A stretch of 64,000 bases of DNA from Gemmatimonadota bacterium (GTDB lineage: Bacteria > Gemmatimonadota > Gemmatimonadetes > Gemmatimonadales > GWC2-71-9). Under the pieces are notes generated by a model that ran no database searches, was not told the DNA's origin, and was given only the letters and a program-made list of their open reading frames with translations. The position numbers and the translations under genes were made by a program. Positions 13,096-18,574 of this stretch are shown here, in pieces (the stretch's first letter is position 1; every line of letters begins with the position of its first letter). The stretch is from assembly GCA_003222155.1 (NCBI GenBank), contig QHUU01000055.1, positions 1-64,000 on the forward strand, in the 5' to 3' direction.

Positions 13096-14742
13096 ATGGA
13101 TACGGAAACGCGAAACCAAGCATACGACGTGATCGTCATCGGCGCCGGCTGGTCCGGGCTTATGGCGTGCAAGTACTGCGTCGCGGAAGGTCTCAGGACC
13201 GTCGTACTCGAGAGCCGAGACACCATCGGGGGCGTGTGGGCCTACACCGATGACCAGCGGTATGGCGGGGTCACCAAGACCACGCATACGACCTCTTCAC
13301 GCTGCGTCACGGAGATATCGGACTTTCCGATGCCCGACGACTACCCGTCCTTCCCCTCTCATGAGCAGATCCGGGCCTACCTCGAGGCGTATTGCGGGCG
13401 GTTTTCACTCGCCGACCACATTCGCTTCAACCAGCGTGTCACTCGCGTGGCGAAGCGCGGCGACCTCTGGCAGGTCACGACGGCGGACGGCGGTCACTGG
13501 CTCGCGCCGCGCGTGATCGTGTCGTCGGGCGTGCATCAGCAGCCCAACGACGTGAGCGATGACGACCGCTTTCGCGGCTATTCAGGAACCCTTCGGCATA
13601 GCGCCGTCGTGAAACAGATCCCAGGCGAGTGGTCCGGCAAGACGGTCGTCGTGTGGGGAGGGGGCGAAAGCGCGAGTGACGCCGCGTTTGAGGCGAGCCG
13701 GGTCGCGGCACGCGTCTACCTCTGCATCCCGAATGGCGTGTGGTTCGTGCCGAAGCGGGTCGATCGCTTGCCCGGGTTTCCCGGATCCGGGCCTAAGATC
13801 TTGGATCACATCTCGTCGCGAGTGCGACTGCGGCTGTCGCCGACGCACCGGTACTCGCCCTTCATCGCCGAATATCTGGAGTGGGCGTTCGGATTCAACG
13901 GCCACGGCCAGGAAGCGTGGAGGACCGACGCGCCCTACAATCGCTCGTTCTTCAACAAGAGTGCAGAGGTCCTGGCCCGGGTAGAGTCCGGCCACGTCGT
14001 ACCCAAGCGCGATATCGCGTCCTGCCAGGGGACCACCGTGCGTTTCAGCGACGGGACGGCGGCAGATGCCGCCGCGATCATCACGTGCAACGGCTACAGT
14101 ACCGCGTTCCCATTTCTCGATGAGGCCGTTGCGGCGGGCACCGATCCACGCAGGTGGTTCAAGTACATCTTCTACAACGACGATCCGTCACTCGCCTTCG
14201 TGGGATTCGCGCGTCCGATCTTCGGCTCGATTCCGGGCCTGGCGGAGCTCCAGAGCCGCTATGTCGCGAAGGTATTCTCGGGCGCGTGTCGGCTCCCAGG
14301 ACCGGCCGAGCGAAGCGCGACCATCGAACGGGACGTCAAGTTCTGGAATCGTCATTTCCGCAACACGTCCCTGCGGATCGCCGGCCTGGTGGACCATTTC
14401 ATCTATTCCGACCAGCTCGCCCGCCTGATCGGCTGCCGCCCGAACTTTTGGGCCTTGTTCTTCTCGAGCCCGCGTCGCTGGTGGCAAGTGATGACCGCCC
14501 CGTGGCACGGGTGCCAGTTCTGGCTGAACGACGCCACGCAGCACGACCGGATATTCGAGACGTTGCGGCGGTATAGCGACGACCGGGTGGCCCAAGCCTA
14601 CATCTGGCTGCTGCTCGCGCCGGTTCTCCCCCTGCTCGCGCTCCGGAGGTACCTGAAAGTGTTCCTCAAGGAGCACCTTGGCCGCAGATCGAGGACCCAG
14701 CCGGGCGTAGCGACGGGCCGTTTGCGGCCCCGGCGGGCATGA
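13096..14742 (+). CDS. Flavin-containing monooxygenase
   Basis: Class B flavoprotein monooxygenase of 548 aa, using FAD and NADPH to oxygenate N, S or carbonyl groups. Visible are the FAD Rossmann motif GAGWSG (16-21), a second NADPH motif (VVWGGGESASD) and the FMO/BVMO fingerprint YSGTLRHSAVV, whose last aromatic residue is replaced by Val. ITCNGYSTAFPFL is the conserved ATG-like motif before the C-terminal part. The last ~60 residues include a hydrophobic helix (YIWLLLAPVLPLLAL) and a basic tail, hinting at membrane association. It is the first gene of a run that continues into a desaturase and an ABC importer. The substrate is unknown. Confidence 0.9.
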   Translation: MDTETRNQAYDVIVIGAGWSGLMACKYCVAEGLRTVVLESRDTIGGVWAYTDDQRYGGVTKTTHTTSSRCVTEISDFPMPDDYPSFPSHEQIRAYLEAYCGRFSLADHIRFNQRVTRVAKRGDLWQVTTADGGHWLAPRVIVSSGVHQQPNDVSDDDRFRGYSGTLRHSAVVKQIPGEWSGKTVVVWGGGESASDAAFEASRVAARVYLCIPNGVWFVPKRVDRLPGFPGSGPKILDHISSRVRLRLSPTHRYSPFIAEYLEWAFGFNGHGQEAWRTDAPYNRSFFNKSAEVLARVESGHVVPKRDIASCQGTTVRFSDGTAADAAAIITCNGYSTAFPFLDEAVAAGTDPRRWFKYIFYNDDPSLAFVGFARPIFGSIPGLAELQSRYVAKVFSGACRLPGPAERSATIERDVKFWNRHFRNTSLRIAGLVDHFIYSDQLARLIGCRPNFWALFFSSPRRWWQVMTAPWHGCQFWLNDATQHDRIFETLRRYSDDRVAQAYIWLLLAPVLPLLALRRYLKVFLKEHLGRRSRTQPGVATGRLRPRRA

Positions 14743-14782: not shown

Positions 14783-15655
14783 ATGACCGTGCGTGAGGCG
14801 GAACCAGACCTCGCCCAGTACAAGGGGCGCAGTGCGGCCAGCACGAAAGTGTCGTTTCTCATCGCGCATCTGTTGTTCGCGGCGTACTGGTTCGTGGGCA
14901 CGCCGAACGTGCCCGGCGCTCTGTTGGTGTGGTTCATTCTGCAGGTGGGCGTGTTCGCCGGATTCCATCGCTACTTCGCCCATCGATCGTACAAGACGCA
15001 TCCGTGGTTCGAGTCCGTGCTGGCGGCGCTGGGGTGTCTCGCGAACCAGGGAGGGCTGCTCTGGTGGGTGTCGGAGCACCGTCATCACCACCGCACCGCC
15101 GACACCGACGCCGACTTCCATTCCCCGCGTGACGGCTTCTGGCACTCGCACATGGGGTGGCTGCTCCGGGACGACATCGACGATCGCATCAAGTGGGACT
15201 TGATTCCCGACTTGCGCCGTCCGCATCTCCTTTGGGTCGAGCGCCATGACACGGCCATCAAGCTCGCCTATGCGGCCACGCTGGCGCTGCTGTTCGGATG
15301 GTACGGCATCCTCACCTATTGGATCGTGCCGGTGGTGTTGTGTTGGCACACCTCGCTGGCCACCAACTCCTTCTGCCACGCGTTCGGCTCGCACCGGGCC
15401 GCATGCCCGCCGAAGGGCTCGTGCGCCGCGCGCAACAACGCGCTCGTTGCCCTGGTCAACCTGGGCGAAGGCTGGCACAACAACCATCACGCCCACCCGA
15501 CGTACGCGCACCATGGATTCCATAGGTGGTACGAGCTGGACGTCGTCTATCTCTTTCTGCTCGTGCTGGAAAGACTCGGAATCATCTGGGACGTCAAGCG
15601 ACGCCCGCGACGCCGGGACGCTCACGACCTTCCACTCGGCATGGACGCGGCGTGA
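14783..15655 (+). CDS. Acyl-CoA/acyl-lipid delta-9-type fatty acid desaturase
   Basis: Integral membrane di-iron desaturase of 290 aa. All three histidine boxes are present: HRYFAH (62-67), EHRHHH (98-103) and NNHHAH (~232-237), with hydrophobic segments between them as in stearoyl-CoA desaturases. It introduces a cis double bond in acyl chains using O2 and an electron donor not encoded here. ATG 14783 has GAGAGGAG just upstream. The stop codon overlaps the GTG of the following ABC substrate-binding gene (GTGA), implying translational coupling between two functions not usually linked. Confidence 0.93.
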   Translation: MTVREAEPDLAQYKGRSAASTKVSFLIAHLLFAAYWFVGTPNVPGALLVWFILQVGVFAGFHRYFAHRSYKTHPWFESVLAALGCLANQGGLLWWVSEHRHHHRTADTDADFHSPRDGFWHSHMGWLLRDDIDDRIKWDLIPDLRRPHLLWVERHDTAIKLAYAATLALLFGWYGILTYWIVPVVLCWHTSLATNSFCHAFGSHRAACPPKGSCAARNNALVALVNLGEGWHNNHHAHPTYAHHGFHRWYELDVVYLFLLVLERLGIIWDVKRRPRRRDAHDLPLGMDAA

Positions 15656-16827
15656 GCGACTCTCTCGCGGCAACGCTGTCGCGATTCGGGCAGCGACATC
15701 GTGGCGCGCTGTTCGTCGTGGCGTGCTGCGGCTGGGCACTGCTGATCCGCGACGTCCATCTGCGGGTCGAGCGCGGTCCCCAAGGCGCCAAGGGGGCGGC
15801 GGAGCTGCTGGACATCGGCGCTCTGCCCGTCACCTGAAACCTCACGATCCCGGTCGCCTGTAGGGCGATGACCACAGAGGGAAAACGGATCGACATGGCC
15901 CAGGGGATGGACATGTCGGGCCTGCCCATGGCGGGCATGCCGGGGATGACCGCGCCGACGGTCGATGCCGACTCGATCGCGGCGCGGGTGCCCCAGATCG
16001 CCCGCTACGTGCGGTACAGCGGATGGCCCGAGTTGAAGGAAGCGATGGTGGCCGGCAAGGTGAAAGCCGCCATGATGCTCGCGCCGATGGTCATGGACCT
16101 TGCCGCCAAGGGTGTGCCCGTCAAGGTGGTGGCCCTGGGGCACCGGTCCGGCGCGGTGATCATGGTGAGAAAGGAAGCGCCCTACAAGAGCTTCGCGGAT
16201 CTCAAGGGGAAGCGGATCGCGATCCCCAGCCGCTTCGCGGTGGACCACATCTTCGTGCGCAAACTCATGGCCGCCCATGGGCTCAAGGACGGTGATCTCA
16301 CGATGGTCGAACTGGCCCCACCGGACATGCCGGCGGCGTTGCTGGCGGACGCCGTAGACGCCTATGCCACCGGCGAGCCGTTCGGGGCCAAGGCGGAAAT
16401 GGACGGGTACGCGCGGGTCTTGTACATGACCCGTGATGTGTGGCCGACCTACATCTGTTGCGTCCTCGCGGTCCGGCAGGAACTGATCGACCAGCAGCCT
16501 GAGACCGTGCAGCGCCTGGTGGACCACGTGTTGGCCGCGGGGCGATGGCTGGAAACGAGCCCGGAGCACCGGACGACGGCCGCCCGAATCGCATCGGACC
16601 GATCGATGTTCAACCAGACGTTCGAGCTCATCAAGTGGGTCATGGAGCGCCCGCCCGACCGCGTCACGTACGGTGATCTTCGGCTGATTCGTGCCGAGTT
16701 CGATGAATTGATGCGACTGTCCCTCGACGCGAAGATCATCGATCGACCGATCCCGTATCACACGTATGTCGATGAATCGTTCATGAAACACGCCCACCCG
16801 GTCGTGATCAGCCCGCCGGCGCAATGA
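15652..16827 (+). CDS. ABC substrate-binding protein (nitrate/sulfonate type) with in-frame UGA: possible selenoprotein
   Basis: Periplasmic binding protein of the NrtA/SsuA/NMT1 type, 391 aa if the TGA at 15835-15837 (codon 62) is read through. The N-terminal part from GTG 15652 has a basic start and a hydrophobic anchor (GALFVVACCGWALLI), then LLDIGALPVT before the UGA. The same frame continues without another stop: NLTIPVAC, SGWPELKEA, GHRSGAVIMV, GKRIAIPSRF and PPDMPAALLADAVDAY are all family-like. As I recall, homologues have Cys at the UGA (LPVTC(N/H)LT). A Met-rich stretch (residues 82-99) follows. Without readthrough, translation could restart at ATG 15868 but would lack the first lobe strand and the signal anchor. 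Selenocysteine, recent nonsense mutation and sequencing error are the alternatives. The permease gene overlaps the stop (ATGA). Confidence 0.7.
15838..15880 (+). promoter_or_regulatory. Candidate bacterial SECIS hairpin after the UGA codon
   Basis: Directly after the in-frame UGA the mRNA can fold: CCUC (15840-15843) with GAGG (15877-15880), GGUC (15852-15855) with GACC (15870-15873), and GCC (15856-15858) with GGC (15864-15866). The loop is UGUAG (15859-15863). An alternative six-pair upper stem is GUCGCC/GGCGAU around the same loop. The loop begins 21 nt after the UGA and has G as its second base. Both fit the usual bacterial SECIS rules as I know them (16-37 nt, G in the first two loop positions). 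Folding by eye only. Confidence 0.4.
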
Positions 16828-17570
16828 CCAAAATCCTCCCCATTGGCGTGCTCCTTGGTGTGACGGCCGTGTGGTGGTTGGCCGCCAGCGGCAGCACCAT
16901 CTTCCCCACCCCGCCGGAGGTGCTCCGGGGCATCGCGGGCCTGGCGACAGACGGCACCCTGCTGCGGCATGTGGCGGCGTCGCTGTACCGCGTCACCTTC
17001 GGATACGGTGTGGCCATGCTGCTGGCACTCCCGTTGGGAATCCTGATGGGCTGGTACCGCACGGCCTTCACGGCGTTCAACCCCCTGGTCCAGATGCTGC
17101 GACCCATCTCCCCGATCGCCTGGATCCCGCTGGCCATTCTGTGGTTCGGGGTGAGCGACCTCTCGCCGATGTTCCTCGTCTTTCTGGCATCGTTCTTTCC
17201 GATGGTGCTTGCCACAACCTCGGGCGTGCAGCTCGTCGAGCGCGAGTACCTTTGGGCCGCGCAGAACTTCGGCATCACCGGGTTCAAGCTGTTCACCCAT
17301 GTCATCATTCCCGGCGCACTTCCTACGATCATCACCGGCATGCGAGTCGGGTTGGGCGTCGCGTGGCTCGTCGTGGTCGCCGCGGAGATGGTCGCGATCA
17401 ACTCGGGACTCGGCTTCCTGATCATCGACTCCCGCAATGCCGGTATGCGGTATGACCTCGTCGTCGCGGGAATGGTCATGATCGGCGCCATCGGACTGCT
17501 GCTGGACCTCGTCATGCGACGCCTGGAGGATCTGAAGGAGGTCCGCTGGAGGTACGCCCGTGGGCGCTGA
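16824..17570 (+). CDS. ABC transporter permease (SsuC/NrtB type)
   Basis: Inner-membrane permease of 248 aa with about six transmembrane segments. The cytoplasmic EAA-like loop is visible as EREYLWAAQNFGITGFKLF followed by IIPGALPTIITG, where it contacts the ATPase. Length and motifs match the SsuC/TauC/NrtB group that imports nitrate, sulfonates, taurine or bicarbonate. Its ATG overlaps the stop of the substrate-binding gene (ATGA) and its 3' end overlaps the ATPase start by 11 bp, so the three components are translated as a coupled set. Confidence 0.93.
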   Translation: MTKILPIGVLLGVTAVWWLAASGSTIFPTPPEVLRGIAGLATDGTLLRHVAASLYRVTFGYGVAMLLALPLGILMGWYRTAFTAFNPLVQMLRPISPIAWIPLAILWFGVSDLSPMFLVFLASFFPMVLATTSGVQLVEREYLWAAQNFGITGFKLFTHVIIPGALPTIITGMRVGLGVAWLVVVAAEMVAINSGLGFLIIDSRNAGMRYDLVVAGMVMIGAIGLLLDLVMRRLEDLKEVRWRYARGR

Positions 17571-18318
17571 TGTCTCGGTCAAGGGAGTCTGGAAGAGATT
17601 CGGAGCCGGCGACGGTGAGGTGTCGGCCCTGGAGGATATGTCCTTCACCGTCGGCGTCGGGGAGTTTGTCGCGATTGTCGGGCCGTCAGGTTGCGGAAAG
17701 TCGACCCTGCTCAAGCTGCTCGCCGGCTTTGAACAGCCTGACCGTGGAGAAGTGTTGATCGACGGACGCCCGGTCCTCGCGCCGAGCCGCCGGGGGATCA
17801 TGATCGCCCAGCGCGGCTCCGTGTTTCCCTGGATGACGGTCCGACAGAATCTGGATCTCGCGTTGGACGGGACCCCGGACCCGGACCGCCACCAGATCAT
17901 CGCACAGCACGTCAACCTGGTCGGTCTGGCTGGCTTCGAGGAACGCTACCCGCACGAATTGTCGGGAGGAATGCTCCAACGGGTCGAGGTCGCCCGCGCC
18001 CTCGTGGCAAAGCCCGACCTGCTCTACATGGACGAGCCCTTCGGGGCCCTCGACGCGTTGACGCGCCTCAGCGTGCGGAACGAGCTGCTGCGCATCCTCA
18101 CGCGTGATCGCCCCACCTGCCTCTTGGTCACCCACGACGTGGAGGAAGCCCTGCACGTCGCGGACCGCGTGTTCGTCATGACCCCGCGGCCGGCCAGAGT
18201 GGCGCTGGTGGTCGATGTGACGGCACCGCGGCCGCGACGCATGTCCAGCCCCGAGCTGGTCGGTCTCAAGGAAAGGATCTTGACCGAGCTCGGCCTGTCT
18301 GCCGCGGATGTCACGTAG
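17560..18318 (+). CDS. ABC transporter ATP-binding protein (SsuB/NrtD type)
   Basis: ATPase subunit of 252 aa. Walker A is GPSGCGKST, the Q-loop is in IAQRGSVFPW, the signature is LSGGMLQRVE, Walker B is LLYMDEPFGALD, and the H-loop is LLVTHDVEEAL. This is the nitrate/sulfonate/taurine importer class. The GTG start at 17560 overlaps the permease end and leaves the usual N-terminus. The 3' end overlaps the next small gene by 11 bp. It powers uptake by the neighbouring permease and binding protein. Confidence 0.94.
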   Translation: MGADVSVKGVWKRFGAGDGEVSALEDMSFTVGVGEFVAIVGPSGCGKSTLLKLLAGFEQPDRGEVLIDGRPVLAPSRRGIMIAQRGSVFPWMTVRQNLDLALDGTPDPDRHQIIAQHVNLVGLAGFEERYPHELSGGMLQRVEVARALVAKPDLLYMDEPFGALDALTRLSVRNELLRILTRDRPTCLLVTHDVEEALHVADRVFVMTPRPARVALVVDVTAPRPRRMSSPELVGLKERILTELGLSAADVT

Positions 18319-18574
18319 CGCGCCGCGTATGCGGGACTGGCTGCGCCTCGCGTTCACAGGCTCGGTAATGCGCCGGGGGCTCCTCTACGCCGTCGTCGTG
18401 GGCTCCGTCCTGGTCGGCATCAATCACGGGGACGCGATCCTTCATGGCGACGTAGACGGCGGCCGCCTCCGGCGAATCGCCCTCACGGTCCTCGTGCCTT
18501 TTCTCGTCTCCACGTCTTCCGGCGTGGCGGCGATTCGGGCGATGCGGGGGTCGCGGGACGAGCATGAGCGCTGA
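18308..18574 (+). CDS. NrtS-like nitrate/nitrite transporter
   Basis: Small membrane protein of 88 aa with two hydrophobic helices. VVGSVLVGINHGDAIL and LTVLVPFLVSTSSGVAAI match the NrtS pattern (INxGDxI in helix 1, VP(Y/F)xVS(T) in helix 2). NrtS was described in cyanobacteria as a small nitrate transporter. ATG 18308 overlaps the end of the ABC ATPase gene, so it belongs to the same unit. This supports nitrate or nitrite as the substrate of the adjacent ABC importer. The NrtS assignment rests on motif recall, not on a search. Confidence 0.78.
   Translation: MSRSAPRMRDWLRLAFTGSVMRRGLLYAVVVGSVLVGINHGDAILHGDVDGGRLRRIALTVLVPFLVSTSSGVAAIRAMRGSRDEHER

Follow-up and report, generated by a model that had tools for sequence, protein, structure and literature searches.

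We found that a gene for an ABC substrate-binding protein (SBP) of a Gemmatimonadota bacterium is almost certainly intact, with its in-frame UGA (15835-15837) very probably read as selenocysteine (Sec), and so a functional selenoprotein gene. The gene lies in a stretch of 64,000 nucleotides that was analysed as a whole (the window), and an earlier sequence-only reading of the window had put it forward as a candidate selenoprotein; this proposal is now strongly supported by the selenocysteine machinery of the genome, by the conservation of the UGA and by a hairpin that follows it. Ribosomes would decode the UGA as Sec via the genome's SelA, SelB, tRNA-Sec and SelD, with read-through aided by the candidate SECIS hairpin just downstream, and the product would be the membrane-anchored binding protein of an ABC importer, with Sec62 placed just after an LP[IV]T motif, where relatives have Asp, His and occasionally Cys. 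Beyond this, we tentatively propose an undescribed selenoprotein family in which Sec replaces the Asp or His of the cleft and, with a Met-rich loop, gives a membrane-anchored importer a site for soft metals or organometals. The family would be independent of the clostridial Sec-assisted organometallic (SAO) system and patchily distributed in one bacterial order.

Most selenoproteins are redox enzymes. Sec in the ligand cleft of a transporter binding protein would suggest that selenium is used for affinity and not for catalysis, and the clade may represent a second system, a compact one with a single binding protein, permease and ATPase, where the role of Sec is testable. Annotation of the UGA as a stop yields a truncated gene that starts at Met73 and misses both the export segment and the putative ligand residue. 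This selenoprotein type is known so far from four genomes of the same bacterial order.

The frame and its product

The frame runs from GTG 15652 to TGA 16825-16827 (391 residues), and its sole internal stop is the TGA at codon 62, in the context ...LLDIGALPVT-U-NLTIPVACRAM... This agrees with the earlier description of a frame that reads through the TGA with no other lesion. The start and stop overlaps with the desaturase and permease genes that had been described were also confirmed, as GTGA (SBP start with desaturase stop) and ATGA (SBP stop with permease start). Hence, the translationally coupled position of the gene in its operon looks intact. The coordinates of the gene, its elements and its neighbors are given in Table 1.

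The protein belongs to the NMT1/SsuA-like substrate-binding superfamily, and three Pfam models exceeded their cut-offs: NMT1_2 (117 bits), NMT1 (69 bits) and Phosphonate-bd (35 bits). The model for the SsuA aliphatic sulfonate family (NCBIfam TIGR01728, SsuA_fam) gave 127.6 bits, below its cut-off of 163.5. An AlphaFold2 model from the five-sequence alignment (mean pLDDT 48, pTM 0.38) was too poor to place Sec62.

Table 1. Features of the Sec binding-protein gene and its neighbors (window positions)
Feature	Position	Strand	Basis or remark
FMO-like flavin monooxygenase, upstream	13096..14742	+	PF00743, 205 bits
Fatty acid desaturase-like protein, upstream, overlaps SBP start	14783..15655	+	PF00487, 66 bits
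ABC substrate-binding protein (SBP), NMT1/SsuA-like, 391 aa, predicted Sec at residue 62	15652..16827	+	Frame and Pfam/NCBIfam profiles
N-terminal hydrophobic segment (membrane anchor or signal), approximately residues 18-36	15703..15759	+	Sequence reading
UGA codon, very probably read as selenocysteine (Sec62)	15835..15837	+	Invariant TGA, 5 copies in 4 genomes; full Sec machinery
Candidate bacterial SECIS hairpin: 6-bp stem, loop UGUAG (UGUAU in three copies)	15853..15869	+	Starts 15 nt after UGA; kept in all copies
Met-rich loop after Sec, residues 73-105	15868..15966	+	Met 13.6-17.0% in five copies vs 1.7-6.1% elsewhere
Cys-Cys pair, C269-C270	16456..16461	+	Invariant in Sec clade; in 14/15 non-Sec relatives read
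ABC permease	16824..17570	+	NCBIfam; best named model SaoP, 178.8 bits, under cut-off 295
ABC ATPase	17560..18318	+	NCBIfam; ntrCD 219 bits, SaoA 197 bits, both below cut-off
Small NrtS-like protein, overlaps ATPase end	18308..18574	+	NF038050, 39.2 bits, cut-off 25

Conservation and distribution of the UGA

Single-protein and profile searches were run on 288 genomes of the order and on 395 genomes sampled evenly from the phylum, and the gene was present in only four of the genomes searched, all of the same bacterial order. Besides the window's genome, these are G276 (a Gemmatimonadaceae MAG, record JACCRF010000073.1; copy L022), G271 (copy L035) and G050, which holds two nearby copies (L018 and L021). 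The four further copies share 55-68% identity with the window protein and, as the sequence-only reading had suggested looking for, carry the same UGA: the TGA falls at exactly the same codon in all five. Hence, the in-frame TGA is not due to chance, since the frame is open and homologous on both sides of it in five copies from four genomes.

The Sec copies group as a clade of their own. No Cys orthologue was found inside this clade, and a search of plasmids with a 27-residue probe turned up no LPVTC form. Matches in G058 and G043 (L019 and L020) and in G236 (L043) were rejected as distant ordinary binding proteins that have neither the UGA nor the motif. In the first sample, the gene was absent from all nine genomes of the same genus and all 27 of the same family. 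Hence, its distribution is patchy, by transfer or by loss.

Selenocysteine machinery

The host draft genome (3.45 Mb, 95% complete) was found to encode all four components that had been named for checking: tRNA-Sec (selC; 80.9 bits, anticodon UCA), SelB (351 bits across the whole frame), SelA (554 bits) and SelD (396 bits). The SelD gene (L030, G000:C93:86883-87815) has an in-frame TGA of its own, making it a Sec-containing SelD.

Among relatives, tRNA-Sec was over the cut-off in all 10 genomes tested, including the three others that carry the gene, and SelB in five of six. Two of those three carriers have SelB over the cut-off; the exception is G050, 71% complete, with 175 bits (below the cut-off). 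Three of the same-genus genomes (G001, G002 and G008 of the set G001-G009) were tested and have tRNA-Sec and SelB although the gene is absent. Hence, Sec use is widespread in the group and is no accident of a single assembly.

Selection across the codon and a candidate SECIS

Before the UGA, seven residues (L53 and G56-T61) are identical in all five copies, and six of the seven show synonymous variation; T61, for example, is encoded by ACC, ACA and ACG among the copies. Hence, it is the protein sequence that is conserved before the UGA. After the UGA, five of the six invariant degenerate codons (N63, L64, A69, C70 and A72) are identical in all copies, versus 15% elsewhere in the gene.

This frozen codon stretch coincides with a hairpin of consensus (A/G)UCGCC-UGUA(G/U)-GGCGAU, whose loop occupies nt 25-29 counted from the U of the UGA, with G as its second position. 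In a bacterial SECIS, the hairpin lies directly downstream of the UGA and has a G within the first two loop positions, and the candidate has the place and shape expected of one. Thus the check for a SECIS at 15835-15890 that had been suggested turned up a SECIS-like hairpin that follows the codon in every copy. Its stem varies by one A-U to G-U change only, with no compensatory changes and so no covariation, and shuffled versions of the 56-nt stretch from the window fold as stably as the original (z of -0.68); the three other copies that were folded gave z of -1.6 to -2.7.

Three other readings of the UGA were weighed against decoding as Sec. The sequence-only reading had itself raised a recent nonsense mutation or an error of base calling (or assembly) in a gene with a Cys codon, and the genomes are indeed draft assemblies in many contigs; however, the four diverged copies in three other genomes share the TGA, purifying selection acts on the frame on both sides of it, and the Sec machinery is present. 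Since the UGA is conserved in independent assemblies, both forms of this explanation are ruled out. Suppression or an altered genetic code might also place Trp or another residue at the UGA, which would equally leave the frame open on both sides; we consider the chance of this negligible, since UGA terminates both the desaturase gene and the SBP gene, Trp is found at the site in no relative read, and a full Sec system is at hand.

Very unlikely, too, is that the UGA is a real stop, with residues 1-61 forming a leader peptide and a shortened protein restarting at ATG 15868 (Met73). Met73 is invariant and two copies have an AGGG stretch ahead of it, but the GALPVT before the UGA is conserved at the protein level through synonymous changes and matches the LPIT strand that opens the mature fold of relatives, and the restarted protein would lack its export segment and first strand. 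The earlier reading had named these two elements as the loss, and every Sec-clade copy has a similar hydrophobic N-terminus. Decoding of the UGA as Sec thus remains the reading that we prefer.

The residue at the Sec site in relatives

We read the column of Sec62 around LP[IV]T in 15 relatives that lack Sec and found Asp in 12, His in two and Cys in one. Proteins of cyanobacteria, proteobacteria and actinobacteria are among those with Asp, as is the nitrate transporter chain 8wm7; His occurs in a Ruminococcus albus protein and in the solved Staphylococcus aureus protein 3UN6. The one Cys is that of an Acetobacter CmpA/NrtA protein (VPISC), which makes the only Sec/Cys pair a distant one. The UGA had been thought to sit on a conserved Cys (LPVTC(N/H)LT), which these counts do not bear out. 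That this position can hold Asp, His, Cys or Sec suggests that the residue contacts the ligand and is not a redox catalyst.

The Cys269-Cys270 pair is found in every non-Sec relative read except 8wm7. We considered the pair as a sign of metal binding specific to the Sec clade and rejected this, as the pair is family-wide and carries little weight.

Comparison with known systems

Among the 119 families and subfamilies of prokaryotic selenoproteins inventoried in 2026, only two are substrate-binding subunits of ABC transporters that contain Sec: SaoX, with the motif UxP, and SaoB, with CUxxT (PMC13188914). Both come from the SAO work. The inventory lists a BtuF-type cobalamin-binding protein (CxxU) as well, which is of a different family (PMC13188914). 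SaoB and SaoX are proposed to have a putative role with organometals (PMC13188914). Sec in a binding protein of the nitrate/sulfonate type had been called unusual, and this needs qualifying: SaoB and SaoX are published Sec-containing binding proteins (PMC13188914). The present family fails the models of both.

SaoX (NF040735) and the window protein share the NMT1/SsuA-like superfamily (61.7 bits over residues 126-315, against a cut-off of 300) and Sec in an ABC binding protein, here alongside a SaoP-like permease and a SaoA-like ATPase; the other Sec-clade copies tested scored 51.7-64.9 bits with this model. SaoX has the motif UxP, whereas the window protein has LPVT-U-NLT and a Met-rich loop. 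SaoB (NF040727, cut-off 140 bits) is likewise a Sec-containing ABC binding protein and has the same UxxT spacing, but none of the four carrier genomes gave a match to its model at E <= 1. The comparison of the clade with SaoX and SaoB was made through their profile models.

It is improbable, though less so than the alternatives to Sec, that the protein is a SAO-type one (SaoX or SaoB). Such an assignment would draw on SaoP as the best match of the permease, on the SaoA match of the ATPase, on the SaoX match of the SBP itself and on the resemblance of TUNLT in the window protein to the CUxxT of SaoB (PMC13188914). Against it are the large shortfall from the SaoX cut-off, the failure of the SaoB model in all four genomes and the flanking genes, in which no other SAO selenoprotein or Sao family was matched in the NCBIfam scan.

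Of solved proteins, 3UN6 is the best relative (126 bits with the profile) and shares the LPIT motif and the Cys-Cys pair; it differs in its His at the Sec position (LPITH) and in an aligned region that lacks the Met-rich loop, and it is distant in sequence. The CmpA/NrtA-type protein of Acetobacter ascendens (L058), annotated to that family, is alike in having Cys at the Sec column but is only 22% identical overall.

Possible substrate and role of Sec62

The Met-rich loop, the SaoP-like permeases and the SaoA-like ATPases lead us to favor a role for Sec62 as a ligand in the capture of soft metals or organometals, although we infer this with less than even confidence. SaoP was the best match for the permeases of the four Sec systems tested, and the ATPases of the Sec systems tested had good SaoA scores, in both cases below the cut-off; in addition, 3UN6, the nearest of the solved relatives, has been described as a metal-binding protein. 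As a soft-metal ligand, Sec62 would capture a soft metal or organometal jointly with the Met-rich loop beside it, and perhaps also with Cys269-Cys270, for transfer to the SaoP-like permease and the ATPase encoded downstream.

The protein may instead be a selenoprotein whose Sec62 handles an organic or inorganic S, Se or N compound, by redox or nucleophilic capture and with no metal. That several more distant relatives adjoin genes of the acyl-CoA dehydrogenase family, and that the family includes binders of sulfonate, taurine and nitrate, makes this a serious possibility at roughly one chance in three; the Met-rich loop next to Sec and the description of the best solved relative as metal-binding speak against it. 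The flanking genes differ between genomes and hence do not settle the substrate.

Genomic surroundings

Next to the ATPase gene of the window, the protein encoded at 18308-18574 passes the NrtS (nitrate/nitrite transporter) model and is possibly a member of the operon. An Alginate_exp outer-membrane porin adjoins the Sec system in two lineages (L025 13308-14816 in G050 and L035 2833-4209 in G271); a motif search saw none in the window.

In G050, genes for AMP-binding, carrier-protein, acyl-CoA dehydrogenase and halogenase-like proteins flank the Sec genes, and these surroundings resemble a halogenated acyl or pyrrole biosynthetic cluster. The region L025 6758-20000 (G050:C147) contains two nearby sets of Sec SBP, permease and ATPase genes, around which lie an acyl-CoA dehydrogenase, two carrier proteins, two halogenase-like FAD enzymes and an AMP-binding enzyme. 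Genes of the acyl-CoA dehydrogenase family also adjoin the distant Asp-type relatives L053, L055, L059 and L039 (LPITD and CC motifs), which come from several phyla; the SBP/acyl-CoA dehydrogenase-family neighborhood is a recurrent operon.
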